Shown: piece after piece, positions 27,906 to 50,989 of the stretch | Position numbering within the stretch: position 1 is the first letter of the stretch | Layout of the letters: each line of letters begins with the position of its first letter | Assembly: GCF_038396675.1 (NCBI RefSeq) | Contig: NC_088934.1 | Coordinates: 37,029,001-37,093,000 of the forward strand | DNA from: Hydra vulgaris | Lineage: Eukaryota > Cnidaria > Hydrozoa > Anthoathecata > Hydridae | Direction: 5' to 3' | DNA length: 64,000 nucleotides | The notes under the pieces: generated by a model | Databases searched by the model: none | What the model saw: the letters and a program-made list of their open reading frames with translations, nothing else | What the model was told of the DNA's origin: nothing | Program-made: the position numbers and the translations under genes

Positions 27906-27927
27906 TTTATATATAAAGAAAAAAAAA

Positions 27928-28347: not shown

Positions 28348-28376
28348 TTTATATATAATAAACTTTTTATTATATA

Positions 28377-28536
28377 TTAATGATTAATTGTTAGATTCTT
28401 TAGTTTCTTAGAATTAATTACAATATTCATAATTACATTAGTAATATCAGTCTCTTCAGTCTCTTCAATCTCTTCATCTGACTCTTTATCTGAGTAAAAG
28501 TAAAAGAGTTTTTAATTTTAATTCTCTATTTTCCAT
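28377..28536 (-). pseudogene. Small acidic protein gene, frameshifted
   Basis: ATG at 28,534-28,536 follows a TATATAAA motif. It reads MENRELKLKTLL, then a shift of frame, then SDKESDEEIEETEETD and a short Asn/Ile-rich tail to the stop at 28,377. About 50 residues. No family is recognised. The promoter motif and position between protease and polymerase support a real former gene. Confidence 0.45.
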
Positions 28537-28594
28537 TTTATATACGCAAGAAAATTATTTATATTATTTTTTTAAAAAAAAGTTTTTTGTAAAT

Positions 28595-28849
28595 TTATAT
28601 GTACACTTCTATAATATTATACAAGTTTGTAAATGGATCATATTTATCAGTGCTTTTTATGAAATAGATTGAAATATCAACATTATTAATACATTCTTCA
28701 CCGTAGTATTTGTAATATTGTTTTACAGCTTTTATTATTTTTTGATTAATTTCTTTAATATTATTTGTATATATCTTTATTAATTTTAATTTATGATTGT
28801 CTAATAACAAAGTTTTTAATATTACTTTTCGTTTTTTATTTATTCTCAT
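28595..28849 (-). CDS. Small hypothetical Polinton protein, 84 residues
   Basis: Open from ATG 28,847-28,849, preceded by TTTATTTAAAATG. Basic N-terminus (MRINKKRKVILKTLL), then alternating Lys/Ile helices and CINNVDISIYF. It lies just downstream of PolB. I do not recognise it. Conservation of the start motif is the main support. Confidence 0.45.
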   Translation of the reverse strand: MRINKKRKVILKTLLLDNHKLKLIKIYTNNIKEINQKIIKAVKQYYKYYGEECINNVDISIYFIKSTDKYDPFTNLYNIIEVYI

Positions 28850-28938
28850 TTTAAATAAATAAAAAATATTTATGTCATTTTTTGTATCTCGTTTAGTATG
28901 ACTTTGGGTGAAGGGAGGGGGTGTTTCTTTAATGCCTA

Positions 28939-31900: not shown

Positions 31901-32663
31901 AATCTCCAACCTGATCCTAGCTGTTGAAATGATGATAAGTTTTCTAAAATTTTCTGCTTTGTTTCTTCAGAAAACTCATCTAAATTTGTAGATTCTAACA
32001 CTCTTAAACTTTAATGAAAGATTCTGCATCATATCCATCTACACCTTTAACTGTAAATTGTTTTGTCACATTTTTAACTGCTGATTGTGGTAATATAAAT
32101 TCTATTTGTTTTTTGTATACTGTATTAGAAACTATAGATTTTATTGATTCTATTTTTCTTTTAATATCAGATCCTCTATCTTCTACTATCTTTATAATTA
32201 GATTTGGAATATATGGTTTAACTCACTCTACAACACCATTATAGCTGTTGATGACATAAGACGATGCATTTTTTGCAGCTGTTGTCAACCTTGAAAAGAG
32301 TCCAGGTTCTAAAACAGGCGCTTGAACTGATAATGGAATTGGTTCATCAAGTATAAGCCTTTCAGACCCATAAGAAGTATGCCTTTGAATAATAGGACGA
32401 GGAGCAGGAACTGGTCTTTGAATAGGACGAGGAGCAGGAACTGGTCTTTGAATAGGACGAGGAGCAGGAACTGGTCTTTGAATAGGACGAGGAGCAGGAA
32501 CTGGCCTTTGAATAATAGGACGAGGAGCAGCAACTGGTCTTTGTCTCTGAGATAATGCATTAATAAATTCATCTTTTCGCATATTATAATAATATTTAAT
32601 TTGACGCTCTTTAGCAATTTGTTTTAATTCTTTTACATTTTTGCTATTCATATTGTTTTCCAT
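28939..32663 (-). pseudogene. POLB: Protein-primed DNA polymerase B with N-terminal SAP-like domain (broken)
   Basis: Start ATG 32,661-32,663 after TATATAAAA. Order: SAP/Rho-N-like NVKELKQIAKERQIKYYYNM, five 10-residue PVPAPRPIQR repeats (32,395-32,545), a conserved region with NQCFKWCIARALNP, a Cys/His finger HYCRNCLLGYNSEES, exonuclease VYADFES near 31,260, CHICG with CHITGKYRDAAH, then polymerase motifs LDANNLYGWAMS (A, about 30,030), KLMNNSVFGKTMEN (B, about 29,720) and FTDTDSLTYEI (C, about 29,440), ending LAYGHYKLR. Breaks: in-frame stops near 32,223, 31,684 and 30,681; frameshifts near 32,005, 30,905, 30,095, 29,955, 29,745 and 29,570. The enzyme would replicate the linear element from a terminal protein primer. 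This copy cannot make it. Confidence 0.92.
32395..32545 (-). repeat. Five 30-bp repeats encoding PVPAPRPIQR
   Basis: Near-identical units of 30 bases lie within the POLB N-terminal linker; two carry an extra AAT codon. A proline/arginine-rich flexible linker between the SAP-like domain and the polymerase body is the likely product. Confidence 0.9.
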
Positions 32664-32690
32664 TTTTATATAGTAAGATAATTTTTTTTA
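32664..32690 (-). promoter_or_regulatory. Promoter-like motif before POLB
   Basis: Minus strand reads ATCTTACTATATAAAA directly followed by the POLB start codon. It is the same pattern as at 32,981 and 33,111. Confidence 0.55.
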
Positions 32691-32770
32691 ATTTTCATTT
32701 TCTTTATATCATTTTTCAAAATATTTTTTTCTTGTTAAAATATTTCATATGATAAATTTCATATAAATTA

Positions 32771-32980
32771 TTATACACACCCCCATCCTCTAACTCTACA
32801 GTAGTATTCTACTGTTCGTAGTTTTTCAAGTTGGCTCTCATTTTGAACAGTTGTTATTCTATATACAAAAGGTTCAGGAGTTAATATTTCTGATGATATG
32901 TATGGAGTCGGTTCATCAAGTAGGTCTTTCAGACCCATGCAAAGTAGGTCTTTCGGATCCATAAGAATTATGTTTTCCAT
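32771..32980 (-). CDS. Hypothetical Polinton protein, 69 residues, built partly from a DNA repeat
   Basis: Start ATG 32,978-32,980 with a strong motif (TCTTGCTATATAAAAAATG). It begins MENIILMDPKDLLCMGLKDL, which is the translation of two copies of the 24-bp dispersed repeat, and continues DEPTPYISSEILTPEPFVY. An adjacent frame of the same DNA gives YGSERPT, similar to YGSERLILDEP in POLB. So this small gene and the POLB linker share a duplicated segment. Function unknown. Confidence 0.4.
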   Translation of the reverse strand: MENIILMDPKDLLCMGLKDLLDEPTPYISSEILTPEPFVYRITTVQNESQLEKLRTVEYYCRVRGWGCV

Positions 32981-33110
32981 TTTTTATATAGCAAGATTTT
33001 TTTAAATCTTTTAAGTTATTATTTATCAATTTTTTATCTTCTTTTTTCCAATACAAAGTGCATGACGTAGGCTTATACATTTTATAAAACTCAATATTTT
33101 TATCTCCCAT
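32916..33110 (-). CDS. Hypothetical Polinton protein, 64 residues
   Basis: ATG 33,108-33,110 after TCTTGATATATAAAA. Reads MGDKNIEFYKMYKPTSCTLY and WKKEDKKLINNN, then runs through the next gene's promoter motif and repeat units in another frame. The real end may lie earlier, with a lost stop. No family recognised; the promoter motif supports the start. Confidence 0.4.
   Translation of the reverse strand: MGDKNIEFYKMYKPTSCTLYWKKEDKKLINNNLKDLKKSCYIKNGKHNSYGSERPTLHGSERPT
32981..33005 (-). promoter_or_regulatory. Promoter-like motif before the 69-residue gene
   Basis: Minus strand AAAAAAATCTTGCTATATAAAA, then A and the start codon. Confidence 0.55.
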
Positions 33111-33135
33111 TTTTATATATCAAGATTTTTTTAAT
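33111..33135 (-). promoter_or_regulatory. Promoter-like motif before the 64-residue gene
   Basis: Minus strand AAAAAATCTTGATATATAAA, then A and the start codon. Confidence 0.55.
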
Positions 33136-33567
33136 ATATTTTAATTTTTTTTAATTTTTCAGAATTTAATATTTCAATCTTATATCCATTATCAATCTTC
33201 CCATCACGCATTTCAAGATATCTATATCCATGACCGGTTCCACGCATTGCACTATATAAAGATTTATATACTGTTTCTTCTCCTGTTTCTATGTTTGTTA
33301 ATTTAATAGTGACTGGCTTTTTCTTAATTGATCTCAATCTTTCATATTTTGGATCTATTTCTTTTTTCTCTTCTTTTACTGGATGTATTTTAGGTCTCCA
33401 ATTGGTCTCTTCTCATCGGTTGCTTCTGTTGCTTTTGACATGATTGATTCTTTACCTATCAAACCATTATCTATAGCAAGCATTATTAATGTAACATAAT
33501 TTTTAGATGTTTGTGAAATGTTATTTTCTTTTAACAACTTCTGCAAGTTTTCCCTTGTATAATACAT
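33131..33567 (-). pseudogene. Polinton gene with NUMOD-like C-terminus, frameshifted
   Basis: Start ATG 33,565-33,567 (MYYTRENLQKLLKENNIS). A frameshift near 33,400 leads into WRPKIHPVKEEKK and then, open from 33,337, VTIKLTNIETGEETVYKSLY, SAMRGTGHGYRYLEMRDGKI and a short Lys-rich end. The latter part resembles NUMOD-type helix-turn-helix modules seen near homing nucleases (memory-based, moderate). No nuclease motif is present. It lies between MCP and POLB. Confidence 0.5.
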
Positions 33568-33616
33568 TTTTATTATATAAAGATAAAAATTTTTTTAAAT
33601 CAATTCAAAAAAAAAG

Positions 33617-34922
33617 TTAATAAACAACGTTCAACTTATTTCCGTCTGATTGAAAGAGTAAAAACTTATCCGATATTACAACAGCAAACGCTTCAGTATC
33701 TGCTGGAACAGCTGCATTAAATGTTGCTTTAATTTGTACATCTACTACTGAGGATTTTAATTTTTCTGATTGTCTACTAACATCAAAAACAAAGAGTGGG
33801 TATAAATCTTTATAGCCTGAAGGAGTTATGTTGCTTTGTGTTATCAAATTGTTCATTCCATAAAATTTTTCACTAAATACAGATGCATCTCTATAGGCTC
33901 TTGAAAATTGATGATTTGGAAATGATTATTATAGAAGTTATAGTCAGCAGCTGGATATTTTTCTTGATTAAGCATAATGTACATATTTTTCAAGTCACAA
34001 TGATCAAATATGGAAGAATTAACTTCTTGATTTCCATCCTTATTTGTTTGGAATCCAACAATGATGTATCTTGGTTTTTCTGGAGATGTTTTTACGCTAA
34101 GTCTCCAAGAAAACGTTGTAGATTGTGGAACAGTTATAGTATCATACTGCCTTGCGCGAAAAGTTACTGGAAGTGTCACTTTTGATTCAATACTTTTATA
34201 AAGATTAGCTCTCTCTAAATCTGATGGAATCACATGTGGCATGAACAATGATATTTTATCAAGATTAACTTTTCCTGCAGCTGCAAGAGCGTTTCTAAAA
34301 ATTGCTCCAGTATCACTTTTTCTAACAAGAGTTAGTGTATGTTTAAATCCGTAAATAACTTTGTTGTAATCATCGCAGAATCCAAAAATGTGTCTTCTGT
34401 GTATACAAAATGAAAATCTGTGTATACAAAATGAAAATCTGTGTATACAAAATGAAAATGTTCCCTTTGTGGTTTCTGAATTATGATGATTGTCGTACTG
34501 CAAACCCTGAGTTATCAGCAAGTACTGCTGTTTTTGAAGAATCTTTGTACCACAATTGATTTAATCCTTGTGCTAATTGAAAGTCATTTGAGTATTTAAG
34601 CATTCCTAACATTGTAGTTGCTTGACCTGGAAAATAAACTGACTCTATATTTTGGTTTGATAATTGATATGATATTTCACTGAATAAATGCATAATACCA
34701 TTATTTGTAAGCGCCACTGCATCTGCGTTAGCATAAGCTGTCCCATCAAGTTTAAGAAGTCTTCCTTCAAACAAAAAATAAGACTCAGATGGAAGTGTGA
34801 ACAAATCTTGTTGCTCAATGTTAATTCTTATTTCTCCAGTGCTATTTAAATTTGTGCGTGCAATTGGTTCATATTCATAGAATTCAAATCTCAGTAAAAT
34901 TTAATATATCAGAAGTTGCCAT
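33617..34922 (-). pseudogene. Major capsid protein, double jelly-roll (broken)
   Basis: Start ATG 34,920-34,922 after TATATAAAAAA. Pieces in order: MATSDILNFTE then frameshift; RFEFYEYEPIART; open 34,481-34,804 (LPSESYFLFEGRLLKLDG); frameshift near 34,490; open 33,853-34,521 with FGFCDDYNKVIYGFKHTLTL, SKVTLPVTFRARQYDTITVP and FSWRLSVKTSPEKPRYIIVG; frameshift near 33,880; open 33,617-33,856 with LITQSNITPSGYKDLYPLFV and IKATFNAAVPADTEAFAVVI. About 430 residues overall, the Polinton capsid size. A 21-bp unit near 34,395-34,458 is present three times and adds FSFCIHR repeats. Would form the virion facets; inactive as read. Confidence 0.9.
34395..34458 (-). repeat. 21-bp unit repeated three times in the capsid gene
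   Basis: TGTGTATACAAAATGAAAAT plus one base is repeated in tandem, keeping frame and inserting two extra seven-residue blocks. Confidence 0.9.
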
Positions 34923-34945
34923 TTTTTTATATACAATATAAAAAA
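34923..34945 (-). promoter_or_regulatory. Promoter-like motif before the major capsid gene
   Basis: Minus strand TATATTGTATATAAAAAA then the start codon. Confidence 0.5.
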
Positions 34946-34977
34946 AATTTTTAAAATGGAAAATAAATATAAAGAAA

Positions 34978-35436
34978 TTAAGCCAATCGAAGACCTCGGC
35001 CTTTTTTTGCTAGATCTTCTATCCTTATAGCTGTTGATTTTATTGCAGACCCCATCATTATATTATTTATATTTGGTGTAACTTCATCAGCTTTTTTATT
35101 TAAATTTGAGATTATGTCATTAATTTTATTATTAATGACTATATTTGGTTGAGAAACTTTAGTAGATGCTTTTCTAACTAATTGTTTTCCTTTTTCAACT
35201 GCAACATCTTTAGCAGCTTCTATTGCTGATGTTGAAAGTTCTTTCCCTGCTGATTTAGCAGCAGTTATTGCAGTTTTTCCTAAATCGCTAGCAGCTAACC
35301 TCTTTAACATAGCTGATGACACTCTTGTTACATTTGATGATGTTGCTCGTTTAAATAAATTTATTAAACTGTCAAATATACCACTTCCTCCAATAGCGTG
35401 TTTCTTTATATATCTCTTATTTTTAACAAATAGCAT
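34978..35436 (-). CDS. Core-like basic virion protein, 152 residues
   Basis: Intact from ATG 35,434-35,436. Basic start (MLFVKNKRYIKKH), then GGSGIFDSLINLFKR, a long Ala/Lys/Ser helix region (SDLGKTAITAAKSAGKELS, AIEAAKDVAVEKGKQLVRK), and a C-terminus ending KKGRGLRLA. A GGSG linker followed by an amphipathic helix and basic stretches recalls adenovirus minor core or membrane-active proteins (pVI/pX type). This is an analogy, not a proven homology. Flanked by capsid and the Tc1-interrupted gene. Confidence 0.55.
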   Translation of the reverse strand: MLFVKNKRYIKKHAIGGSGIFDSLINLFKRATSSNVTRVSSAMLKRLAASDLGKTAITAAKSAGKELSTSAIEAAKDVAVEKGKQLVRKASTKVSQPNIVINNKINDIISNLNKKADEVTPNINNIMMGSAIKSTAIRIEDLAKKGRGLRLA

Positions 35437-35445
35437 TTTTATGTA

Positions 35446-35911
35446 CTATATATTTTTTTTATATACATTGAGGTGTGGTTGTATTGCTTTATACTGATCA
35501 CTATTCATAACACCTTGTCTCAACAATTCATCACAAATTGCAACAGCTTCATTTCTTGATCCAGTATTACCGGCTCTCCATGCAGCTATGCGTAATTCAA
35601 GCATATCAAGAAGTGCAATAGGATCGCTAGTAAGAATTATTGGTCCTATTCCTGTTCCCTTTGATTCTCTTTGATACTTAAGCATTCTAGTTCTCTTTAA
35701 CTCTCTCCAAATGGGAGCTATTATTTCTTTGTATTTTTCGCTCCGAGATGACTTTGGTTTTCCTGAATGAGTAGTAATTACATCTGTTTGTATTATTATA
35801 TCTCAATAATTGTGAAGATCATCCATATTATATATTTCCTCATTAGGATTAGACTTTGTTAGTAATTCCCAAAAGACCAGGAGTACCTATGTATTTTATT
35901 CCATTTATATC
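35446..35911 (-). pseudogene. Conserved Polinton gene, 3' part (5' part beyond the Tc1 insertion)
   Basis: Continues the gene at 37,641-38,096. Just left of the Tc1 element the frame reads INGIKYIGTPGLLGITNK, a frameshift follows, then NPNEEIYNMDDLHNY, a TGA stop near 35,803, and TDVITTHSGKPKSSRSEKY; the last 79 codons are open (GTGIGPIILTSDPIALLDML, AAWRAGNTGSRNEAVAICDE). I remember this protein as common in Polintons but no function is established to my knowledge. Inactivated three ways: transposon, stop and frameshifts. Confidence 0.65.
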
Positions 35912-35913
35912 TA

Positions 35914-37638
35914 CACTACCGTGCAAAAGTCTCCGCTCATTTGTAATATTTCAATAAAGTAACAAAAGTTTGCAAGAAAATTGCGTTTATTTTTAATTGT
36001 TTATTAAACAATGAATTAGACAGTAAATACAATACATTTTAGGATGATTTTAAATATATAAAATCAATAAAATGTTAATATACAAAGTTGTAAATGTTAA
36101 ATTTTATTTTCATCAATATGAGACCCCCTGGAGCGTATAACAGCAGCACATAATCTTGGCATTCGGGCTAATAATTTATTCATGGTTTCCGCTGTTATCT
36201 CATTCCAAGCTTTTTGCAAACGTTCCCATATCATTTGCTGATTAATAAAAGATGTTTCACTTGCTTCTCTGATCTTCCGATCCAGTTCATCCCACAACTT
36301 TTCGATGGGTGATAGATCTGGTGATTGAGGAGGCCAAGTCATAATTTTGCAAACTTTTCCCTTTATTTTGGTTTCAAATAATTTTTGCATAATCCAGATG
36401 CATGTTTTGGATCGTTGTCCTGCTGCATGATGAATCCTTTCCCAATTATACAAATACCAGATGGAATCGCGTGCTTAACCAAAATATTATGGTACATGTG
36501 TTTATCCATGGTAGATGTGATTTTAACTAAATCTCCAGTTAACCCATTGCCAAAACATCCCCAAAGCATAATATTACCACCTCCATGTTTTACAGTACTT
36601 TGTATACATTGAGGAAGCACTCTTTCATTAGGTAAACGCCTAACATGCACGCGACGTCGGGTACCAAAAAGTTCGAACCTACTCTCGTCTGTCCATAGAA
36701 CTTTCTTCCAATCTTCTAATCCCCAATTTTTATGCATTTTTGCCCATTCCAATCTTTTCTTCTTATTTACTGCCCTCAACAAAGGTTTACGTGCAGCAGC
36801 GCGTCCAATTAAGTTGACTGATCTTAGTCTTCTTTTTACAGTATCAGTTGATACTGGCTTTACCCTTGTTTTGTTGAGTTCTGCTGTTAAAATTGTGGCT
36901 GGAATTTTTCTATTTCTTTTGCTGGACACAACATTAAACGTATCTTCTTGCCGTGATGTAACTCTTGGTCTTCCAGAACGTGATCTGTCACTGTTGGAAC
37001 CAATATCATGCAATCGTTGTAGAGCATATCTCACACCTGATTCGGATATTTTTAACCTGGAAGCAATTTTTCTATATGAATAACCTTCTTCACGTAAAAT
37101 ACATATTTTGCCACGAAGTTCTTCACAATATTCTTTCTTTACTTTCACCATTTCTCAAATTCTTTATTAAATTCAAGACATTAAATGCGCACACTAATGC
37201 CATTTTCAAGTATAAATATAAACATAAGTCTATTAAAAGCAACCAATTAAAATTACTGAAAACATCCTTACCATGCCGGAAAGTATGATGCTACTGTCAA
37301 ACCTAAGCTTACAAAAAATATTTTGGTTAAAACTTTTGTGCAGTTTTAAATTTAATAAAGAATACTGAAGAACTTTATATGTATTTTACGTGAAAAAGGA
37401 AATTCATATAGAAAAATTTCTGCCATGTTTTTAGCAGCAGAACTCAACAAAACAAAGGTAAACAAAATTATTTGAAACAAAAAGAAAAGGAAAAAGTATG
37501 CAAAATTATGATTTGGCCTCATCAACTTTTTATATTAACATTTTATTCTTTTTATATATTTAAAATCATCCGAAAATGTATTGCATTTACTGTTCCTTGC
37601 AAATATTACACATGAGCGGAGACTTTTGCACGGTAGTG
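35914..37638. mobile_element. Tc1-type element inserted in the Polinton
   Basis: Ends are CACTACCGTGCAAAAGTCTC and its inverse, with TA duplicated at 35,912-35,913 and 37,639-37,640. The inverted ends extend inward over 100 bp, the left carrying about 60 bases not in the right. Removing the element rejoins the interrupted Polinton gene at the TA, so the insertion is later than the Polinton. Confidence 0.95.
36097..37151 (-). pseudogene. Tc1 transposase, DD34E, one frameshift
   Basis: 262 codons are open from ATG 37,149-37,151: helix-turn-helix YSYRKIASRLKISESGVRYA, GRPR motif (SRSGRPRVTSR), second DNA-binding domain, then catalytic LWTDESRFELFG and FIMQQDNDPKHA. A single frameshift at about 36,380-36,400 moves the rest to another frame with WPPQSPDLSPIEKLWDELD, which carries the catalytic Glu. 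All three acidic residues are retained. About 340 residues, the normal Tc1 length. Apart from the shift it is well preserved. Confidence 0.92.
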
Positions 37639-37640
37639 TA

Positions 37641-38096
37641 TATCATCATTATTAATTAATATTGGAACTTTTCCTATAAAAAATTTACCCTCTTTAGAAT
37701 GTATTCCAAATGTAGTGTCTGTAGACGTTTTACTATAAGTATACATCCTAAGATAGTCTGTTGCAATTTTTCCCAACTTTAAAAATTCATCAGAAGGCAT
37801 TAGATCCTTCGGATTCATAAGAAGTATTTCTTTAGATCCATAAGTAAGTATTTCAAGATATGCATTTGAAAACGTAAGAGCAAATTGATTAGCTTGATCT
37901 TGCAATTTAGATATATCCTCCTTTATTCCAGATTGACTATCAATTAATGGCTTGTACAATTTTGACAAGTCATCTGCAAATTAGAATCTCCAATCTTTTC
38001 ACTAAGATGATTCTGCTGTATTCTTTTTTTACTCTCTGATAATTCTTTTACAATTTGATCTCTCTTTTCAGTGTCTGTAATTTTTAAAAATGACAT
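37641..38096 (-). pseudogene. Conserved Polinton gene, 5' part, interrupted by Tc1
   Basis: ATG 38,094-38,096 after TATATAAAAACAAA. MSFLKITDTEKRDQIVKELS and a Lys/Gln-rich coil, frameshift near 37,985, then open: LSKLYKPLIDSQSGIKEDIS, KLQDQANQFALTFSNAYLEI, with YGSKEILLMNPKDLMPSDEF partly encoded by the dispersed 24-bp repeat, and HSKEGKFFIGKVPILINNDD just before the Tc1 end. Likely coiled coil at the N-terminus. See 35,446-35,911 for the remainder. Confidence 0.65.
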
Positions 38097-38120
38097 TTTG
38101 TTTTTATATAAAAAAGATTA

Positions 38121-38152
38121 AAAACACAACATAAACTTTTATGTTGTGTTTT
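38121..38152. repeat. Perfect 15-bp-arm hairpin with 2-base loop
   Basis: AAAACACAACATAAA and its inverse face each other around CT, directly before the ACGTTTT array and 25 bases upstream of a gene start. Confidence 0.9.
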
Positions 38153-38156
38153 ATGA

Positions 38157-38290
38157 TTTACGTTTAACGTTACGTTTTACGTTTTACATTACGTTTTACG
38201 TTACGTTTTACGTGTTATGTTTTACTTTACGTTTTACGTTTTACGTTACGTTTTACGTTTTACGTTTTACTTTACGTTTTACGTTTTAGC
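38157..38290. repeat. ACGTTTT/ACGTT array, about 130 bp
   Basis: Tetramer ACGT recurs about 18 times, spaced mostly 5 or 7 bases apart by T-rich linkers. It lies in a non-coding gap inside the Polinton. Function unknown; a replication, packaging or protein-binding role is only a guess. Confidence 0.9.
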
Positions 38291-38350
38291 AAACTATTTA
38301 AATAATCAATATTAAACGTTTCACAATTCTTTTTAATCTTAATATAACTG

Positions 38351-38674
38351 CTATTGATAAAATACTTTGTTATTTTTTTCTTTAAAATCACACTCTAATT
38401 GAAGTACATATTTATCTATCATTGTCAATTTATAATTATTTTTAACATTAGTCGATTGTTTATTATGATCTTTAATGTCCCTTTCTACACAATAAAAATC
38501 ACTATAAGTTGATGGTATCTGAAAGTTTCCATAATCAGTGATAATTATAGAGTGACTTCCTGAATCAACAATAAAACTTCCTTTTCCAAATCCAAGAAGT
38601 TCCAAATATTTTTTTTTATTCAAATCTCTTTCATGTTTACTGCATTCTAAAAAGAATGGATATAAATGTTGCAT
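38351..38674 (-). CDS. Hypothetical Polinton protein, 107 residues
   Basis: Open frame MQHLYPFFLECSKHERDLNK, LGFGKGSFIVDSGSHSIIIT, YVLQLECDFKEKNNKVF. The start lies 14 bases after the stop of the upstream gene, with no clear TATATAAAA motif, so it may be translated from a shared transcript or begin elsewhere. Beta-rich pattern. Not recognised. Confidence 0.5.
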   Translation of the reverse strand: MQHLYPFFLECSKHERDLNKKKYLELLGFGKGSFIVDSGSHSIIITDYGNFQIPSTYSDFYCVERDIKDHNKQSTNVKNNYKLTMIDKYVLQLECDFKEKNNKVFYQ

Positions 38675-38687
38675 ATCTTATTATTTG

Positions 38688-39358
38688 TCAATAAAATGTT
38701 AAGTGACTTTTTTTATTAAACCTACTTTGAATTACTTTAATAGCTTCTTCTCTCCCTTGGTCGATTAGTGACAACATTGTTTGTTCATCAATTTCATTTT
38801 TAACTTTTATTCTAATTTGCTCCATCATTGTCTGAAATTATTCAAGTTCACCAAGTATTAACTCAAATTCCTTGTCATCTATATGCCCATCTACTAAAGC
38901 TTTAGAAATATAATTACTTATTGTATTTAGTTTTGAATCAGCAAGCACTTTAATCTTTTCATGCTTTTCTGCTTTTAAATTTTTAAATTCATTTTTTTAT
39001 TAACTTGTCCGCCTATTATTGATAACACACCTGCTCCTAATGCTGCACCTTCACATGCAATAACTATTGGTGCTGCAATGATTGTTGATAAAAAACCAAT
39101 TCCAATAGTTCCAAGTGCCATAGTGCTTGCTAGTAATGCATTATCAATTGCAGAAATTATTTTTACAGCTCTATGATATCTTTTACTTAGCGTTATTCTC
39201 TTTTCTCTCTCACGGTCTATTTCTTTTTGAATCTCGCCAAGTTTTTGTAACTGATATGATTTTTCTTCAGGTGCATTAGGAAGAACAGGGTAAATATTGT
39301 TATTCTCAGTAGGTATAGCTGAATAAATGTTATTGTACATTTTATTATTGTATTCCAT
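38688..39358 (-). pseudogene. Conserved membrane-associated Polinton protein (broken)
   Basis: ATG 39,356-39,358 (MEYNNKMYNNIYSAIP). Residues 50-75 form a charged coiled coil (GEIQKEIDREREKRITLSKR), followed by two hydrophobic stretches (LLASTMALGTIGIGFLSTII, AAPIVIACEGAALGAGVLSI). A frameshift near 38,985 leads to LADSKLNTISNYISKALVDG and FELILGELE, an in-frame TAA at about 38,837, then MMEQIRIKVKNEIDEQTM to the end. About 210 residues originally. A membrane role, perhaps of an inner capsid layer, is inferred only from the hydrophobic segments. Confidence 0.6.
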
Positions 39359-39383
39359 TTTAAATAAAAAAAAAATAAAAAAA

Positions 39384-39747
39384 TTAACACAATAGATTAA
39401 CAGAACAAAAACAATCTCCTTTTTTTATTAACACATCAGAATAAGATTTATTTACAATTGTTACTATAATATCATCAACAGACTTTGCTATTATACAATC
39501 TTGTAAACTTAACATTTTTAATCTAAGTTCATGTTTTAATGAAACTAACGCAACACCTTTATTAACTACTACACCAAACTTTAATATACTGATGTGATAG
39601 AGATTTTATTGTAATGTCGTGTTGTGCAAATACATCATATCTTCCATTTATTAATATTACAGGATGCTGTAAATTTTTATGTGGTTTAAAAACTATAGGA
39701 AATGGTTCCGGTTGTTTATATTTGTTTATAAATTTATGCACTGGCAT
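39384..39747 (-). pseudogene. dUTPase-like small beta protein (frameshifted)
   Basis: ATG 39,745-39,747 (MPVHKFINKYKQPEPFPIVF), HPVILINGRYDVFAQHDITI, frameshift near 39,575, then FGVVVNKGVALVSLKHEL, LQDCIIAKSVDD, IIVTIVNKSYSDVLIKKGDC to the end. The string V-I-V-N-K-S-x4-I-K-K-G-D resembles the C-terminal strands of trimeric dUTPases, but the catalytic Asp/Tyr motif is not visible. It may be a non-enzymatic relative or a coincidence of beta strands. It ends 25 bases before the next gene's start. Confidence 0.35.
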
Positions 39748-39797
39748 GCTATTTGAAATTTTATTATATATAAATTTTATTATATATAATTTGAAAA

Positions 39798-40381
39798 TCA
39801 AAGAATCATATTTAAAAATGGAATATTAGCAAATGGAAAATTTGGTCCTAATAATAAACCTGATCCTGTTGATGTATAATCATTTCCACAACGTAAGTAC
39901 AATTCATCACCTACAGAACTTCCTTTACTCCATGGTCTCAAATATAAACCAGATCCTGCGCATGTTAATTTAACTCCTTGTCCCTTCTTTTTCATGTACA
40001 CAATACCATTTCCAGCAATTTTATTAATCATCGTTGATCCAGCTGCTGATCCTACTTCTGAAAGCAGTCCTGTTGCAAGTGGTGGTATAACTCTTGATGC
40101 TAAAGAACCAAGAAACGGTAAAAGTGCACCGATAAATCCACCTTCTATTTTAGAATTGTGTACTAGCTGTGTTTTACTTAAAATAATTGATACACCAGAA
40201 CTTTTTCATATGCTTTTCTAATTCTATTAAATTGTGTTGTTGTTACAGCTAATACATGTTCACCATTTAAATCTGAATGCGATAACTTAATACTAGCTCC
40301 AATACCACATTCAATTGCATTTTTAATTTTTTCTATTTGGTTTTGTGAAAGATTTACTTTAATATTAGTATATTTACTCAT
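39798..40381 (-). pseudogene. Core-like Polinton protein with GSGLYLRP-type repeats (frameshifted)
   Basis: ATG 40,379-40,381. MSKYTNIKVNLSQNQIEKIK, NGEHVLAVTTTQFNRIRKAY, frameshift near 40,195, then SKIEGGFIGALLPFLGSLAS and a Gly/Ala-rich hydrophobic helix, and a C-terminal set of short repeats: GNGIVYMKK, GSGLYLRPW, GDELYLRCG, GSGLLLGPN. A hydrophobic or amphipathic segment followed by small basic repeats is typical of Polinton/adintovirus putative core proteins. Likely a virion component acting inside the capsid. One frameshift; otherwise preserved. Confidence 0.6.
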
Positions 40382-40396
40382 TTTGTTATAGTTAGA

Positions 40397-41116
40397 TTAT
40401 TTTTTTTCTCTTATATGAAATCTAATAGCTAATTTTTTTCCTCGTAAATTTATCAGATTTCCATCTTGATCAACCAATTTAGTCTCCATCTTTGAAATTG
40501 TTTTTAGTGTTATTGGTAAGTAAATTAAGTTTAATGGCTCTTGAATAATTTTATATCTAGAACCAACACTTGGGAAAAATGAATATATAACGTTTTCTGT
40601 TGTTCCATTTACATAGAATGATGCTATTATATCATTTGTTACACTTATGCTATTAATACTTAAAATGTTTACTATATTATCTGATTCATAAGATCCTGTT
40701 AAATATACTTGACTGTTAAAACCAAGAATAGATCTAATTGAATTTATAGGTCTAAAATCAACTTTATAACCAGCTTCAATATTTAAAGTTGTTTTTAATG
40801 TGTTATTTTCTGCTGAAAATATAATACTAGTTTCAACTCCAATAATAATTTTACTATTTTCAGTAATTTTTTCCACAATATACTTATTTATATCATCAAT
40901 CTCATAACTACCTTCTAGAATGTTTATATCTATCCAAGTCGCTCCATTATCTGAACTATATCTAAAATTGTTATTTGAAGAATCAACATTTGGAAAACTG
41001 TAGAATGTATCAAGACCAACTAATGCAATTTCATAATCTTTATCTTCACTTAGTTGTATAATAGGAGCAAACTTCTCTTTTATATGACTACTTTTATCAT
41101 TCAATATTATATACAT
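40397..41116 (-). CDS. Penton (minor capsid, single jelly-roll) protein, intact
   Basis: 239 residues from ATG 41,114-41,116, preceded by GGATATAAAAA. Key stretches: MYIILNDKSSHIKEKFAPII, DYEIALVGLDTFYSFPNVDS, NNNFRYSSDNGATWIDINIL, EGSYEIDDINKYIVEKI, GYKVDFRPINSIRSILGFNS and LNLIYLPITLKTISKMETKL. This is the pattern of the Polinton minor capsid protein, which would form the five-fold vertices where the fibre could attach. No stop or frameshift. Downstream gene starts 16 bases after its end. Confidence 0.85.
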   Translation of the reverse strand: MYIILNDKSSHIKEKFAPIIQLSEDKDYEIALVGLDTFYSFPNVDSSNNNFRYSSDNGATWIDINILEGSYEIDDINKYIVEKITENSKIIIGVETSIIFSAENNTLKTTLNIEAGYKVDFRPINSIRSILGFNSQVYLTGSYESDNIVNILSINSISVTNDIIASFYVNGTTENVIYSFFPSVGSRYKIIQEPLNLIYLPITLKTISKMETKLVDQDGNLINLRGKKLAIRFHIREKK

Positions 41117-41139
41117 TTTTTATATCCAAAAAAATTATT

Positions 41140-41921
41140 TTAAACTTTAGATGGAAAATAAAAATTATCTAATCCACTTCTATATTTTCCATTATCTATT
41201 TTAGAAGATAAATCTATGACAACAAATCCATGAGGTTCTGACCAAGCATGCTTACAAAATTTTTTAAACTCATCTTCGTTCATATCACTAGAAACATGAT
41301 CTCTATAAATATGACTTAAATTCTTTGCATCTTGAGGAAATAAGCAAAAAAATTGGCATTTTCTCGAATAGTTTGTCTAGGTAACATAAAATAACTTTGT
41401 GCAAGATAGAAGCAATCTACATTACTATGTCTTCCTCTTATATAATATTTTTCACACTTATTTTGTTTTGTTAAATGCAAATCATCAAATATCATCAAAT
41501 TATTCTTGTTAATATCAAGATCCTCAGGATTTGGTACATCTTCATCTGTTTCAAAAAACTTACACTCCATATCTGCTTTATCTTTCAAATTTTTTGAAAC
41601 TTCTGCAATTACAAAATCTGGATTTGCATTAAATTTTTCTATTTGGTCTTGTAGCTTAAATAGTTCATTAATAATTTCTTTTGGCAATTTTTTTTCAAAA
41701 GAGCTTTTTAATATTTTGTATTCTGGTTGAAAAAGAGACTTTCCAAAAACTTGTAAATTATTATAATCTAACCAACCAGGTCTTCAAAGTAGATTTAATA
41801 ATAAAGTAGTTTTTCCACAACCCAACTTTCCAACAATAATTACTCTTATACTTTTTGGTAACAACTTGTTATTACTTCGCTTATTTTTATTTACTTTCTA
41901 TGAATAATCTATAATATCCAT
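41140..41921 (-). pseudogene. ATP: Genome-packaging ATPase (broken)
   Basis: ATG 41,919-41,921 after TCTTATATATAAAA. Reads MDIIDYS, TAG stop, KVNKNKRSNNKLLPKSIRVI, Walker A IVGKLGCGKTTLLLNLL at about 41,785-41,830, TGA stop, RPGWLDYNNLQVFGKSLFQP, then open 41,316-41,687 with Walker B NLMIFDDLHL (about 41,480) and the CFYLAQSYFMLPRQTIRENA region. A frameshift near 41,335 leads to DAKNLSHIYRDHVSSDMNED and the stop at 41,140. About 260 residues, usual for this FtsK/HerA-type ATPase, which pumps DNA into capsids. Not functional here. Confidence 0.9.
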
Positions 41922-41971
41922 TTTTATATATAAGATTTTTTTTATATATAAAAATTTCTATATATATAAAA
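41922..41971. promoter_or_regulatory. Divergent promoter region with TATATAAAA-ATG on both sides
   Basis: Only 50 bases separate the start codons of the ATPase (minus) and the zinc-ribbon/PLA2 gene (plus). Each start is abutted by TATATATAAAA. Related motifs (AAAAAATCTTNNTATATAAAAATG) precede starts at 27,905, 28,347, 28,536, 32,663, 32,980, 33,110, 33,567, 34,922, 35,436, 38,096 and 41,116. The closeness to ATG is unlike a normal RNA polymerase II TATA box and recalls late promoters of large DNA viruses. Confidence 0.6.
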
Positions 41972-42453
41972 ATGTACTGTGTCAAATGTAGAAACAAAAC
42001 AAATACACTAAACTTGCAAAATGTTGTGAGTAAAACAATAGAAATGTGCAACGTGGAACTTGCGCTATTTGTAGAACAACAAAAACTCAATTTGTATCAT
42101 CAAAAAAAGGAGGAGATTTAGTGAGTTCAATTAATTCAATAACTTAAAAAATAAAATTACCATGGGCAAAGTTCCCTGGTGAAATGCATTTACCTGGAAT
42201 GAACTTTTCTGGTCCAGGCACTAATTTAGATAAACGATTAACTTCTACTGATGCATATAAAGAATGGAGTAAACCTATAGATAGAGTTGATAATGCAGCT
42301 TACCATCACGATCTTGCTTATAAATACTTCAATGATACTGCAAATAGAAATAAAGCTGGTAAAATTATGATCGAAGAAATGGATTCTATAAAAAATCCAA
42401 CAATACGTGAAGGAATTGAACGAGGTATTATAAAACCTATTATATCATCTTAA
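41972..42453 (+). pseudogene. Zinc-ribbon plus phospholipase A2 (parvovirus-type) gene (broken)
   Basis: From ATG 41,972 the frame reads MYCVKCRNKTNTLN, then after a frameshift GTCAICRTTKTQFVSSKKGG: two CxxC pairs like the short zinc-ribbon family DUF5679. After NSIT an in-frame TAA (42,145-42,147) interrupts, then KIKLPWAKFPGEMHLPGMNF, SGPGTNLDKRL (calcium-binding Gly loop) and DNAAYHHDLAYKYF, the HD catalytic pair of PLA2 as in parvovirus VP1. In parvoviruses this lipase helps escape from endosomes; the same role in Polinton particles is inferred. The frame downstream of TAA is open for about 100 codons. Confidence 0.75.
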
Positions 42454-43491
42454 GCAAAGTTTGGGCTAGGTCTTTCAGACCCATATGAATTAGGTCTTTC
42501 AGACTCATATGAATTGGGTGTTAAAACTACTCAAAAAAACTACAAACGATCAAAGAAAAAGAAAAGGGTAAAGAATTGAAATGGACTGATGAACTTGCAA
42601 ACGAACTTCATAAACCAGTTGTAAAACATTTCAGAAAAAGAAAAGTGATTGTAAATGGAATCGATGAAATATGGGCTGCTGATTTAGTTGACATGCAATC
42701 TTTCTCCAAACTCAATGACGGTATAAAATACTTATTAACGGTGATAGATGTTTTTTCAAAGTATGGATGGATTGTTCCATTGAAGAGTAAAACTGGAGTT
42801 GATGTTGCTAATGCTTTAAATAAAATCTTCGACGAAAGAAAGTGTCAAAAAATATGGGTAGATAAAGGCTTAGAATTTTATAATAAGCATGTTAAAGTGC
42901 TAGGTGTTGAGTTATACTCAACTGAAAATGAAGAAAAAAGTTGTGTAGTAGAACGATGGAATAGAACAATGAAAGATAAAATGTTTAAGTACTTTTCTGC
43001 TAATTCTACTAGAAAATATATTGATGTCTTAGATGAAATGGTAAATAAATACAACAACACAAAGCATTCTTCCATTAAAATGACACCAATTGAAGCTAGC
43101 GATAAAAAGAATGAAAATATTGTTTGGTTCAATCTAAATAGAAATGTACGATCAAAGTCTGTAAGGCCAAATTTTTCAAATGGTGATAGAGCTAGGATAA
43201 CTAAAAAAAAAGGAACGTTTGAAAAAGGATACACACCGAGATGGACTGAAGAAGTTTTTACAGTGTCACAAGTTCAGTTCACAGATCCACCAACTTATAA
43301 ATTAACTGACTATAATGGTGAAGAAATGCAAGGTACTTTTTATGAACAAGAAATGCAAAAAACAGATCAAAATATTTAGGATTAAAAAAGTTATTCGTAA
43401 ACTCAAAAACAAATCATTAGTAAAGTGGTACGGTTATCCTGATTCGTTCAACTCATGGGTTGATAATAAAGAATTGATAAGTCTAAATTAA
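42454..43491 (+). pseudogene. INT: Retrovirus-type integrase with chromodomain-like end (frameshifted, start missing)
   Basis: The N-terminal part at 42,454-42,570 (AKFGLGLSDPYELG, then KNYKRSKKKKRVKN) is in the PLA2 frame just after its stop and has no ATG. A frameshift leads to the open core (TTG at 42,576 to 43,379): WTDELANELHKPV, IWAADLVDMQ (first Asp), IWVDKGLEFYN (second Asp), CVVERWNRTMKDKM (Glu), SNGDRARITKKKGTFEKGY. Asp and Glu are 29 residues apart, shorter than the usual 35. After the stop at 43,377, a +1 shift gives LVKWYGYPDSFNSWVDNKEL, a chromodomain-like end stopping at 43,491 inside the TIR. The enzyme would insert the element with 6-bp duplications. Confidence 0.88.
42467..42508. 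repeat. Two units of the 24-bp dispersed repeat
   Basis: TAGGTCTTTCAGACCCAT followed by ATGAAT spacing to the next unit, period 24. Related units: 32,354-32,371; 32,921-32,962 (two, period 24); 37,801-37,850; and AAGGTCCTTTGGATCCAT in both TIRs (43,688-43,705 and inverted 26,421-26,438). Confidence 0.8.
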
Positions 43492-44549: not shown

Positions 44550-45015
44550 CAATTGCGCCGCACAGTGTGTCAGAAAGGTCAAAAAACGGCAAAAATGACA
44601 CGAACGACGCGCGCTTACGCGTATAAGTGTCATTTAAGTGCGCAAAATATGATTCAAATAAAAAAATTGGATTCTTTCATCTAAAATACCATATAAAAGA
44701 ATACCACATATTTTTTAATGTAATTTTTTCTTGTGCCTAAGGGTCTTACTACGCACGCGTATACGTGTTAGAGTCTTTTACGCACACAGACTGACTTAAT
44801 TTAAAAAAATTAAATTTTTCAAACCAAAACATTTACTAATTAAAAAGAAAAATTGGATTCAAAAAATTTTTAAATATTAGAATATATTAAATACAATATA
44901 AATATAGAAAACAAAAAAAGAAAACCTAATATTAATAAAAAAGCTTTATTTCATTATTACAGCATTAATAAAGATAAAACTTCAGGGTAAGTGTTTTTCC
45001 ATTTTCAACCTTGTA

Positions 45016-46380
45016 TTATTTGAAACAAATGTTTAATTTTACAGGAAAAATTCTAATCAACAGGTATTTGTACAGGTTTTTCGTAACATTCTTTCTAGAC
45101 ATCTTGGCTGTATGGTTTAATCTAGCTTTGCGAATTTCCTTATTTAGAGCCTCTTGTGACTCTTCAGAGTAGTAACCAATTGGCAGTTCTAATGCCTCAG
45201 ATATCTGCACACCATGTTCCAAGAGTTTATGAACAGTTGGGGGAATTACATATAATTTTTGAGTATAAGAGCTGTAGTTTCGTAGCAATACTGGCCAAAA
45301 CTTTCAGAGTTCAACTCATAACAGGAGCATACTGATATGAGGGTTGTCCTCAATCTAATAATTACATCTACAACCAATCCTGTTTTATCAGCAAAAGTTT
45401 CAGCATTTTCAAAACCCTGTTTATGCTTATCAACTATAAGACTTAGCTCCTCTCTAAAGCTCAGTTGAATGTTCTTTTTTCTACTTTTTACTGATGCTTT
45501 TTAGCAGGGGATTTGGCAAAGTATTTAATGTCTTACTTATATCCTAAATGTAAAATGTATTCGATCTGAGCCAGCAATGCAGAGTAGAAAGACCCAAAGA
45601 TAAAGCTTTTTCATTGATTGGTTTAGATCTGATCAATGCTGGGTTATTAAGTTCATTGAGCTTAGCTCCGCAAACATTGCATGATTGGGAGGATAGAGTG
45701 TTAGTGAGGGTATTAACCACTTTACCATAAAACATGGTTAAATCTAGTTTGAACTTAAATGTGATGGTCGCATCCGGTTAGCTTTCCTCAAATTCTAAAT
45801 TTACTTCAAACTTGACTAGTCTATTTATTTTTGCTTTTAAAAGTTCATACTCATTTCTTATCAATTCTTCCGTTTCTTATTGATATTGGAGATGTAAGGG
45901 TCTACTAATGTAAAAAGGTAATGTGAACTAGAGAGTGTCTTATTAAACCATACATTTTTGTTCATGACGGTTAATGTAAGTGAAACAATAGCTGTCTGGA
46001 AATAACTTTTCTCGTTAACTTGGACCTCACCAATATTTGTATTAGTATATTTTTGTTTATAGACACTTTGACTGGAGGCACCATCAAAACCACCTTTAAA
46101 GTGAAGTAGTCCTTTATACCACCACCCAATTTCAGCGAACATTCTCAGAGAGTCTTGACATTCCGTAAAAGTTAATATCCTTGTCAGAGTATGATAAACA
46201 TACCCTGTAGAGGAGTTGAAGCAGATGTTTCTGTCACAATTAAACCCTCAGGATAACACTTGTGTCTCTCATTCTTAATTTCATGAAGTGAATGATAAAT
46301 ACCTGCATTATGTATTATTGATGAATTTTTAATTATTTGATACTGTTCATCAGAAAGGTCACACTAAATTTTTAAGCTCA
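45016..46380 (-). pseudogene. Transib transposase relic (RAG1 core-like)
   Basis: Minus strand pieces in order: KNERHKCYPEGLIVTETSAS near 46,240; GWWYKGLLHFKGGFDGASSQ (first catalytic Asp codon 46,083-46,085); VNEKSYFQTAIVSLTLTVMN; TMFYGKVVNTLTNTLSSQSC with CNVCG near 45,680; STLHCWLRSNTF; and, open 45,016-45,288, VIPPTVHKLLEHGVQISEAL, SEESQEALNKEIRKARLNHT (catalytic Glu region). The xDGK position, normally the second Asp, reads FYGK (codon 45,727-45,729). Multiple frameshifts and deletions. It would have cut at the CACAGTG ends by a hairpin mechanism related to V(D)J recombination. Confidence 0.85.
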
Positions 46381-46669
46381 AGGTATCTTCGGTCTTCATT
46401 TTTATCTGAAAATTTATCTCCGTGATTTTAACTTTTTCAGAGTTTGTAGCACTTTTCATAAGAACAACAAAGTTTTTTTGTTAGGATCTCTAGTGGCTTT
46501 TGAACTTTGATCGGAATTTACATTTAAATATTATTAGAGTTTTCTTTAGATTTATCATTTCAGGTTTGTCAATACTTTCATAGTATAGGCTCTCTAGTCG
46601 TAAAAACTTACGTAGAAGAGCTTCAAGTAAATCATCATGATTAATTCCTAACTTTTAATTTATAGGAAC

Positions 46670-46920
46670 TAGATATATTCTTTTCATGTTGAATGTAAGC
46701 AGTGAACTATTAGCAGAACTATTGTTAGTTATTTTATAAGCAAGTTTAAATTTTAAAACATGCTCTATGCCATCAAATGTTGCATATTTTGATTTGATAA
46801 TTAGCACCATCTGCTTGAGCATGAGTTTTTTGACTAATAGGAACTAAATGTATTATTTGTGTGATGAATGTAAGCAATGAACTGTTGTTCGCTAGTTTAT
46901 ACACAAGTTTTAATTAAAAG
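46670..46920. repeat. Imperfect direct duplication of about 80 bp in the Transib interior
   Basis: AGGAACTAGATATATTCTTT..ATGTAAGCAGTGAACT at about 46,668 recurs as AGGAACTAAATGTATTATTT..ATGTAAGCAATGAACT at about 46,840. Confidence 0.6.
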
Positions 46921-47495
46921 CGGACAAAAAAAATACAAAAAAAACGAAGTATTAAAAAGGTCTTATTTTAATTGGGACAACTTGGGGCCAATGATTTTTA
47001 TTTTTTCTGCTTTCATATATACCTATTAATGGAAAAATATTATAACTACCATGGAATCTAGTGGAATCATTTAGTTTATAAACTAAACTCATAATTAAAC
47101 TATATTAAAAAAATCAATATATGACACATTTTTGAAATCTCATTAACGAAAGTCTTAAATAAAATTGTCAAAAATGTTGCTAATAGTTACTTAAACATAT
47201 GACTTTAAAACTTTGAACTGTTTTTACCCATATCGATCTTAAAAGAGTGATACTAAAGCGAGACTTTTTTGAACGAGTTTTCCGATAAATAAAATAAAAT
47301 AAATAAGTCTCGGAAAAAAGCGTATAAATTGGTGAAACCTTAAAAATTATTCAGAAAAAAATTAATTATTATCTTTTAGTAGTATTTAGTTGCATTATAA
47401 TTTAATTAATTATTTTCTAGCAATAGTTTTTTATGGGGGGTTTTTTGCCGTTTTTTATGGATTTTGACTCACTGTGCGCCGGCTTTGTATATAAC

Positions 47496-48349
<854 letters not shown>

Positions 48350-48351
48350 TA

Positions 48352-50989
48352 GAGTAAAACCTGGTCAAACCGCACACTTATCAATGAAAATTAAAGAACT
48401 TTTTTTACTTTTTCATTTTTTTTTTTTTCCATTTCTTTGTATTAGATAGGTAATAAAAAACTAAATAAGATAATATATATATATGTTAAAAAATAATAAT
48501 AAAATTATCGAAAATATTAAACGTAAAGAAAAAAAAAGTGTGCGGTTTTAGGCGACATTCGGATAAAACATGGAATTTTTGAAATTTTAACTTTTTTTAT
48601 TGTTATTATTTTTAATGAGACTTACATTCAAAAAACTATATTGAGGTTTTTACATTTTTTGCAACAAAAAAACTTAGTTCCAACTACACATTTCTTGGTC
48701 AACATGTTTCTTTGCGCAACCAATCCGAATTCTCGAATTGCAACATTTTGCAACTTTTAATTGTTTGGCTGCTCGTACTTTTTTCTTCATTATTGTTTTG
48801 CTGAGGTTGCTCAGCATTGTTATGCTCAGGCATTTGAGTACTTGGCATAGAGAGTCTACGCTTTGAGTTATGTTTAGCAACTTTCACGGCTTCCTTTGTT
48901 GCTTTTTCTTTATCTTTTTGTTTGAGGAAATTGATCACATTTTTTCGGTAATACATTTTCCGCCAAGTTTTGACATTTTGCACTGCTTTGATTTCTTAAT
49001 ATGCGATTGATTTCTGGCTTGAAAAAACTGCTTCAACAAAATCAAGATACTGCTTTTGCAACGCTCAACACATGCTTGATACCTATCAAAACTTGAAGCT
49101 GGTGTAGTTGTGAAAAATGGTAATCGGTGTGTAGTTCGAGTAAGTGCTGTGGCGGCTGTTGAAGATAATGAAATTGTGTCTGAGCAAGATGGTATAGGTG
49201 CTGCGGAGGCTGCTAAAGTTGATGAAGGTGGATTAAACGTTTTTGTGATTGCTAATGCTTTATGATTTATGTTGTTTTTATTAAGTGGAAATAAGCCAGT
49301 GTACTGGAAACCAGCGATTGCGTGCAAGCGTGTAAAACATTTACCACTCTTATAAAGCAGTTTGAGCAATGGTAGAAAATGTTATTTATCTAAATTATTA
49401 CATTTTGAGTCTTTGTAATACTTTGTAAAATTTCTTTCCATGCTTATTTGACATGACAATAGACACCTCTATCCAATGGTTGTTGAATATGTGAAGAATG
49501 CACTTGTAGACAACTCAAGATTATATTGTGTTTTTTGCACAGCAATACCGCTTCCAAAGCTATGTGAGTTGTATGCCCATCTAATACTAAAGTATTAATA
49601 CCACCAATTTGCTCAGTTTTGGGTATAAATACTTCTTTCAGCCATTCAATAAACGTATCGTGCTCCATCCTTTATCTGATTTTGAAATTGAATATTTGGT
49701 GCCAACTGAACCACCTCTTGCCCAGTCAGGACGAAAGTTTCTTTTAGCTTTGTATATCACAAATGGTGGTGCAAAATGCCCATCAGCGTTGCAGCATTTG
49801 TTTACAGTATAATGAATTTTTTTGTTGTTGTCAGTATGTTTAAATGCACCTCTTGTACCTTTTCGATACACTACGGTTGCTTTACCTTGATCACCCGAAA
49901 AACCTGTTTCATCACATTTCCAAATATGCGTCACTGAAGTTATACCAGTCTGTTGATATTGCTTGGCGATGCAGTCAAAATAACGATCAATTTTTTTTGG
50001 CGTACAAGAAGCGACTCTTTTAAATGCTGAGTTATCCGCTTTTCTTGTTGAAATTTCTTTTGACCATCTCTTCATAAAGGTATAAAACCAGTCTTTACTA
50101 GGCTTGCCATTTTTGAATAAGTGCAATTGATCTTCGCGTTTAAGGTAGCCACATACAAATTCTAGAATTTTATTTCCAATTAAACCATAACCCAAGTCTC
50201 CAAGTAATTGGAACACATGCACCATCAATTTTTCTGTTTCATTTGAGAGTACCGTCGTTGACCCTGAGTCATGGAAGCCTTTGTCGTTGTTATTTTTGCG
50301 ATCTTTGAGCGTTGAGACTGGAACGCCATATTTGAATGCAGCTTTTCTCAGTGATGTTTTATTTTCTTTCATATCTTTTAATTCGGCTAGTATATCGTCT
50401 TTCTTGTATGCTTTTGTTTTTTTAGTTGACATGTTAAAGTGAGTGAGTTAAATTGAATTGAGTGAGTAATGATTATATTGAGAAATAATATAATAATTGG
50501 TTTTTAATGAGTAAGAGATGATTATATTAACAAATAACATTATATTTCATTCATAATTATTTAGATAAAGATACGCGCTAAGTCACTTGCGAAAAATTAA
50601 ACTAAGTAATTAATCGAGTGTGCGGTCTTATCAGGAAAAAAAAAGTTTTTTTTACTATTTTGTTTTTTTATTTAACTTTTTGTCCTAGATGCGTAAAAAT
50701 TATACTATCTGAATTAAAATTATGTTTCCAAGAAGATAGTGCTAAATTTATTTTTATATCAGTTTCAAGCGTTTTGTTCGCAACGATAAAGAATATATAA
50801 AAAATTTTGACTCCCGGTTAAAGTTATATAATTGAATCGACATATAATTTTATCAATTCGAATAGAGGAGATAGTTCTGTATTTGAATCTATTTTTATTT
50901 TTTTCTTAGCCATATCCGTTTAGTTTTTATTTGATAATTTCGATTAGTGTGCAAAATGATATGGTGTACGGTTTGACCTGGTTTTACTC
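48352..50989. mobile_element. pogo-type element, 2.6 kb
   Basis: Ends GAGTAAAACCTGGTCAAACC and its inverse with one or two changes. TA duplicated at 48,350-48,351 and 50,990-50,991. Encloses a minus-strand pogo/Tigger transposase. Confidence 0.9.
48674..50432 (-). pseudogene. pogo/Tigger-like transposase (broken)
   Basis: The first 264 codons are open from ATG 50,430-50,432: psq helix-turn-helix (DILAELKDMKENKTSLRKAA, FKYGVPVSTLKDR), CENP-B-like middle (PSKDWFYTFMKRW), then the first catalytic Asp in HIWKCDETGFSGDQGK. A frameshift near 49,660 leads to NTLVLDGHTTHIALEAVLLC with the second Asp and SSHIQQPLDRGVY. Further breaks near 49,400 precede IAGFQYTGLFPLNKNNINHK, a Ser/Thr/Ala-rich linker, a Lys-rich helix and a degenerate Cys finger near 48,720. 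Same architecture as the relic at 4,938-6,640 but a different family. Not functional. Confidence 0.85.

Follow-up and report, generated by a model that had tools for sequence, protein, structure and literature searches.

A dead Transib transposon with perfect CACAGTG heptamers in Hydra vulgaris and its young sibling family

Results

Ends and target-site duplication of the element

The window, by which we mean the whole stretch of 64,000 nucleotides of Hydra vulgaris DNA that was analysed, contains a Transib element proper at positions 44561–47476, whereas the span of 44556–47481 given in the first-pass annotation takes in both copies of the target site. Sibling copies elsewhere in the genome, described below, served as the reference for the gaps in the following features.

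44556–44560, no strand: left target-site copy CGCCG, directly abutting the left CACAGTG
44561–44595, plus strand: left terminal inverted repeat, with the CACAGTG heptamer and an A-rich block from position 21; the genome-wide signature
44561–47476, minus strand: entire element, 2,916 bp, with the 3′ end of the transposase gene at the left
44596–44597, no strand: 101-bp gap relative to the siblings, just within the left terminal repeat
44971–46480, minus strand: what is left of the main coding exon (catalytic core), split among several frames and with stops (tblastn); two fragments match HzTransib
45151–45153, minus strand: third catalytic residue, Glu (SEESQEALNK), retained by sequence alignment
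45727–45729, minus strand: position of the second catalytic Asp, here Tyr (TMFYGK); Asp in HzTransib (TMIDGK)
46083–46085, minus strand: first catalytic Asp (GGFDG), retained by alignment to HzTransib
46484–46711, minus strand: what is left of the transposase's first coding exon, 78% identical to the sibling frame (tblastn)
46501–46503, no strand: gap of ~287 bp relative to the siblings (presumed intron and coding sequence on either side)
47442–47476, minus strand: right terminal inverted repeat, with spacing equal to that of the left end
47477–47481, no strand: right target-site copy CGCCG, directly abutting the right CACAGTG

CACAGTG reads inward at both termini, at 44561–44567 on the plus strand and at 47470–47476 on the minus strand, and opens 35-bp imperfect terminal inverted repeats whose left and right versions are identical at 28 of the first 35 positions in the window copy and at 29 of 35 in the sibling majorities. 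Each end opens with CACAGTG and GTCA, continues through a segment in which left and right differ, and then reads AAAAAACGGCAAAAA. The A-rich block starts at position 21 on either end, in the window copy as in the two sibling majorities. The heptamer by itself is not significant, as CACAGTG was found 3 times in the window against 2.3 expected, and simple repeats flank the element on both sides, two observations that favour a chance origin of the heptamers and the duplication in low-complexity DNA. However, the 35-bp end signature occurs at 323 places in the 911.5-Mb genome at two mismatches or fewer (a whole-genome count over an assembly of 15 contigs, not limited to the places shown), against 0 for a backwards-read control pattern, and 17 complete siblings were recovered, so that a chance origin is refuted by the genomic ends and vanishingly improbable. 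The end pair is thus significant through the agreement at 28 of 35 positions, the exact 5-bp repeat abutting it and the genomic signatures that the control lacks, confirming the preserved CACAGTG at both ends that the annotation had described, together with the reality of its GC-rich CGCCG duplication. Both end types were found genome-wide at the position-21 spacing, the pattern being by design blind to other spacings.

Sibling copies and target preference

Of the copies with these terminal inverted repeats, for which the annotation had proposed a search, the genome holds 323 ends, and 17 complete siblings were examined. A DNA search with the window element gave 103 matching stretches among 40 scored of 436 candidates (window copy included), from which 29 sibling loci (L003–L031) were taken and 17 kept as complete with both ends placed; the remaining 12, in which one or both ends went unfound by the end pattern, were dropped from the counts and counted against the Transib reading. 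The complete siblings are 3,325–3,443 bp long and, with gaps ignored, 96.4–98.0% alike (median 97.2%), and the window copy is 90.0–90.7% like them on the same measure. In BLAST, where gaps are counted, most long stretches are 84–88% like the window copy.

The window copy lies 8.47% from the sibling majority compared with 1.06–1.86% for the siblings themselves, and at its 245 differing sites it has a base in common with any of the 17 siblings at only 28. These figures could mean that it belongs to a separate, older Hydra Transib subfamily and is not just an aged copy within the sibling family, a reading to which we give an appreciable chance, if one short of even. Against it, the 40 candidates scored of 436, the window copy among them, included none closer to it than the siblings, a few short stretches reaching 90–98%, and a lone old copy would look identical.

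An exact 5-bp duplication flanks 9 of the 17 complete siblings (CGTCG in four, CGACG in three, CGGCG and CAACG in one each), and 8 of these 9 fit CGNCG. Only 28 CGNCG sites occur in the window (0.44 per kb), and against this scarcity the target preference is plain. The other 8 siblings have an inexact duplication, matching at 4 of 5 positions in seven and at 3 of 5 in one, which was counted against the Transib reading. Among the seven one-mismatch cases, the difference is G-to-A at a CpG in four (flanks of L004, L006, L009 and L029), as the decay of methylated CpG would give, and of another sort in L017, L021 and L028. The left heptamer is perfect in all 17 siblings and the right one in 14, counts that are mildly biased because the selection pattern demanded end resemblance, with up to four substitutions allowed.

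A 59-bp direct repeat also lies within the transposon (46653–46711 and 46828–46886, 80% alike and 175 bp apart). It was rejected as an oddity of the window copy, as both parts were also present in the three siblings inspected (L010, L018 and L020).

Transposase gene and its decay in the window copy

A main-exon frame of at least 548 codons, measured from stop to stop, is retained in 2 of the 17 siblings, and several siblings carry an upstream frame of ~131–134 codons. A GT...AG stretch spotted by eye between the two frames suggests that the sibling transposase gene has one short presumed intron.

In the window copy, the GGFDG, CNVCG and SEESQEALNK motifs that the annotation had listed are all present, lying in the minus-strand frames 45861–46247, 45544–45777 and 45016–45303, respectively. 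With the sibling frames as tblastn queries, the coding remnant proved to be scattered over the three minus-strand frames and interrupted by several in-frame stops. Relative to the siblings, the window copy also lacks 39 bp near 45410, in addition to the larger gaps listed above and some smaller ones. Precise loss of the intron was rejected as the origin of the 287-bp gap, whose breakpoints are not at GT and AG. The D, D, E triad of the Hydra family aligns with that of HzTransib, and the second-Asp motif, located in 13 of the 17 siblings, always has Asp at the position where the window copy has Tyr. By alignment, we take the Hydra triad to be equivalent to D600, D708 and E962 of RAG1. These are the RAG1 catalytic residues named in the excerpt of PMC6941560. 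Judged from its stops, frameshifts, 287-bp deletion and Tyr at the second catalytic Asp, the window copy is dead.

Transposase kinship

The 548-residue sibling frame matched the HzTransib transposase of Helicoverpa zea (PDB 6pqn and relatives) with E = 8.3e-80 over 465 residues, bearing out the Transib identity put forward in the annotation, and matched no other solved structure at E ≤ 0.01; the window fragments matched HzTransib with E values of 3.9e-4 and 1.1e-8. The GGFDG fragment also hit a kelch protein of solved structure, but at E = 0.5 this was discarded as not meaningful. Homologous transposase, 5-bp duplication, terminal inverted repeats resembling the RSS heptamer and, in the family, a DDE triad are all features of the Transib superfamily that were found here. 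Both outcomes that the annotation had named as fatal to its reading, a transposase of another superfamily and relatives with different ends, are absent: Transib is the superfamily to which the transposase was assigned, and the same ends recur in the complete relatives. Only five of the 120 homologues listed are named, four from Hydra vulgaris and one from an ant, in keeping with the cnidarian host that the annotation had proposed. None of the window fragments or sibling frames passed the Pfam cut-off, which was counted against the Transib reading; some database homologues bear precomputed PF26100 or PF06918 labels. Rfam gave no match in the window at gathering scores.

We compared these transposases with RAG1 and RAG1L through a profile of 20 sequences, 19 of them drawn from the 120 homologues listed and one being the sibling frame. 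HzTransib scored 623.8 bits, amphioxus RAG1L 48.1 and the vertebrate RAG1 entries 32.7–45.7, indicating that the tie to RAG1 is real but distant, that the near kin are Transibs and that the transposase is far closer to HzTransib than to RAG1L or RAG1. The spacing from CxxC to the zinc-binding His is 161 residues in the Hydra family, 165 in HzTransib and 202 in amphioxus RAG1L; it was obtained for 93 of the 120 homologues (first match taken, the other 27 being without one), and all are at or below 168.

Transibs have been divided into Subgroup I, with asymmetric ends throughout, RAG2-binding helices in the zinc domain and a position nearer RAG1L, and Subgroup II, which is without these helices and has ends of both kinds (PMC9435367). 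By the short CxxC-to-His spacing, used as a proxy, the RAG2-binding helices were not found in the Hydra family, and its ends are not asymmetric, the A-rich block lying at position 21 on both. The Hydra family therefore looks like a Subgroup II Transib and not like the branch nearest RAG.

End spacing and the 12/23 signals

The annotation had further proposed aligning the interior of the terminal repeats with the 12/23 recombination signals. Nonamer-like matches came to 6 of 9 positions at both ends at 12-bp spacing, 5 of 9 (left) and 7 of 9 (right) at 23 bp, 6 of 9 and 7 of 9 at 21 bp, and 7 of 9 at both window ends at 11 bp, where the sibling left end has 6 of 9; as background, 2.1% of sampled window places reach at least 7 of 9 at one of six spacings (11–13 and 22–24). 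With symmetric ends and nonamer matches that do not fit, a 12/23 arrangement as in V(D)J recombination was rejected. A few insect Transibs have 12/23 ends while others show symmetric spacers of 20–22 bp, according to the excerpt of PMC8355894, and by its end spacing the Hydra family fits the symmetric insect Transibs, not the 12/23 ones. Transib ends are RSS-like in general (PMC4411706 and PMC8355894), so the RSS-like heptamers are not peculiar to the Hydra element.

Search for a RAG2-like partner

A linked RAG2-like (kelch) gene, a trait of RAGL transposons and one that the annotation had suggested seeking beside the element, was found neither in the full-length sibling L020, judged by frame length, nor in 18 Pfam-scanned ORFs near the window copy. 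L020 has no second gene of size, its longest non-transposase frame being a 140-aa antisense one. Around the window copy there are 25 ORFs, 8 on the right (at least 85 aa) and 17 on the left (at least 100 aa), of which the 18 scanned with Pfam, all within ~10 kb, gave no kelch match; two further ORFs, at 5.4 and 15 kb, were also scanned.

Discussion

Origin of the window copy

The window element is almost certainly a Hydra Transib copy, now dead, and thus a DNA transposon of the cut-and-paste type. An alternative would make it what is left of a RAGL transposon or of a Subgroup I Transib, from the branches that stand nearest to vertebrate RAG, after the loss of a RAG2-like partner. CAC-starting ends and a 5-bp duplication are common to those elements and the window copy, the Transib profile does pick up RAG1L and RAG1, if weakly (33–48 bits), corals have cnidarian RAGLs, we read one Hydra Transib of PMC9435367 as Subgroup I, and a RAG2 gene may lie elsewhere in the genome. 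By contrast, the same profile gives HzTransib 624 bits, the spacing of 161 residues is near the 165 of HzTransib and far from the 202 of amphioxus RAG1L, the ends are symmetric where those of Subgroup I are all asymmetric (PMC9435367), and a full-length sibling is without a second gene of size, leaving this origin highly improbable. The annotation had called the element a clear relative of the ancestor of V(D)J recombination. A general, distant cousinship with RAG1 stands, but a privileged link is not supported, given the nearness to HzTransib, the symmetric ends, the short zinc spacing and the lack of a second gene of size in a full-length sibling.

For the Transib reading, we propose that a live relative would express its single transposase gene, whose product would bind the two 35-bp ends, which match each other, and cut next to CACAGTG on one strand. 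Release of the element would then go through a hairpin, as it does in RAG and HzTransib, the relatives on which these steps are modelled. Reinsertion with a 5-bp stagger at CGNCG-like targets would leave the 5-bp duplication; both this duplication and a target bias are observed, and the chemistry is argued by analogy. The window copy would have landed at a CGCCG site and then decayed, gaining stops and frameshifts, suffering deletions and losing its second catalytic Asp, while the ends and the duplication have survived. Our verdict is that it is an old member or an older sister of a young Hydra family, an ordinary dead Transib.

Known relatives

The element is of an already known kind, as Transibs of Hydra are in print. 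HvuTransib-7_HMp and HvuTransib-9_HMp are named in a figure legend (PMC9435367), whose order we read as placing HvuTransib-9_HMp with Subgroup I and HvuTransib-7_HMp with HzTransib in Subgroup II. The excerpt of PMC12220107 lists CMC-Transib among the putatively active Hydra elements, outside the top 20% by expression, and puts such elements at 334 Mb, or 36.6% of the Hydra vulgaris AEP genome. The two HvuTransibs and CMC-Transib have superfamily and host genus in common with the Hydra family, which may be one of them. A superfamily tree that also holds Chapaev clades includes rows of Hydra magnipapillata, which may be Transib rows (PMC4411706).

HzTransib, 3,518 bp long according to the excerpt of PMC1852546, resembles the Hydra family in its transposase over 465 residues, short zinc-domain spacing, 5-bp duplication and size. 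It differs in that the window copy is dead and that the Hydra family has CGNCG-like targets, bipartite ends of 35 bp and, as far as can be judged by eye, a single short intron. RAGL transposons, such as ProtoRAG of amphioxus, and the vertebrate RAG1/RSS system share with the Hydra family the CAC-starting ends, the 5-bp duplication and distant transposase similarity, but in the Hydra family no RAG2-like gene was seen in sibling L020 or in the ORFs scanned near the window copy, the ends are symmetric, the zinc domain is shorter and the profile score of RAGL and RAG1 is far lower. Cnidarians also have solitary RAG1L loci that stand closer to the RAG1L of deuterostomes than to the Transib of arthropods (excerpt of PMC7204232); by the score, spacing and end tests made here, the Hydra family is not of this sort. 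Drosophila hopper and transib2 have the superfamily and a modal 5-bp duplication in common with the Hydra family, whereas their target motif is given as CCANTGG (PMC3276498), as against CGNCG. Among the matches listed from the open-licence literature (12 of 81), none contains the term CGNCG.

Significance of the family

The window copy itself matters little; it carries the caution that a transposon is to be assigned to the RAG branch by its transposase and end spacing, not by a perfect RSS heptamer. The Hydra Transib family shows a clear CGNCG target preference inside an AT-rich genome, and its young siblings could be used to test for insertion differences between Hydra strains. It is conceivable, but on the whole unlikely, that the sibling family, which combines CGNCG targeting and symmetric ends with perfect RSS heptamers, remains mobile in Hydra today; if so, it would offer a natural system for RAG-type transposition without RAG2.

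Other elements in the window

A perfect TA microsatellite of 58.5 units (47497–47613) begins 15 bp past the right target-site copy of the Transib. A Maverick/Polinton-like gene run extends over 26640–43379, with polymerase-like and capsid-like ORFs recognised by eye only, an integrase-core ORF (42525–43379, below the Pfam cut-off) and a phospholipase-A2-like ORF (42148–42453), and is broken by a Tc1/mariner-type transposase ORF (36363–37154, PF01498). On the minus strand lie a DDE_1 transposase piece (5424–6005, PF03184), which we take to be of the pogo type, and a transposase-looking Psq-HTH ORF (49638–50447, PF05225).
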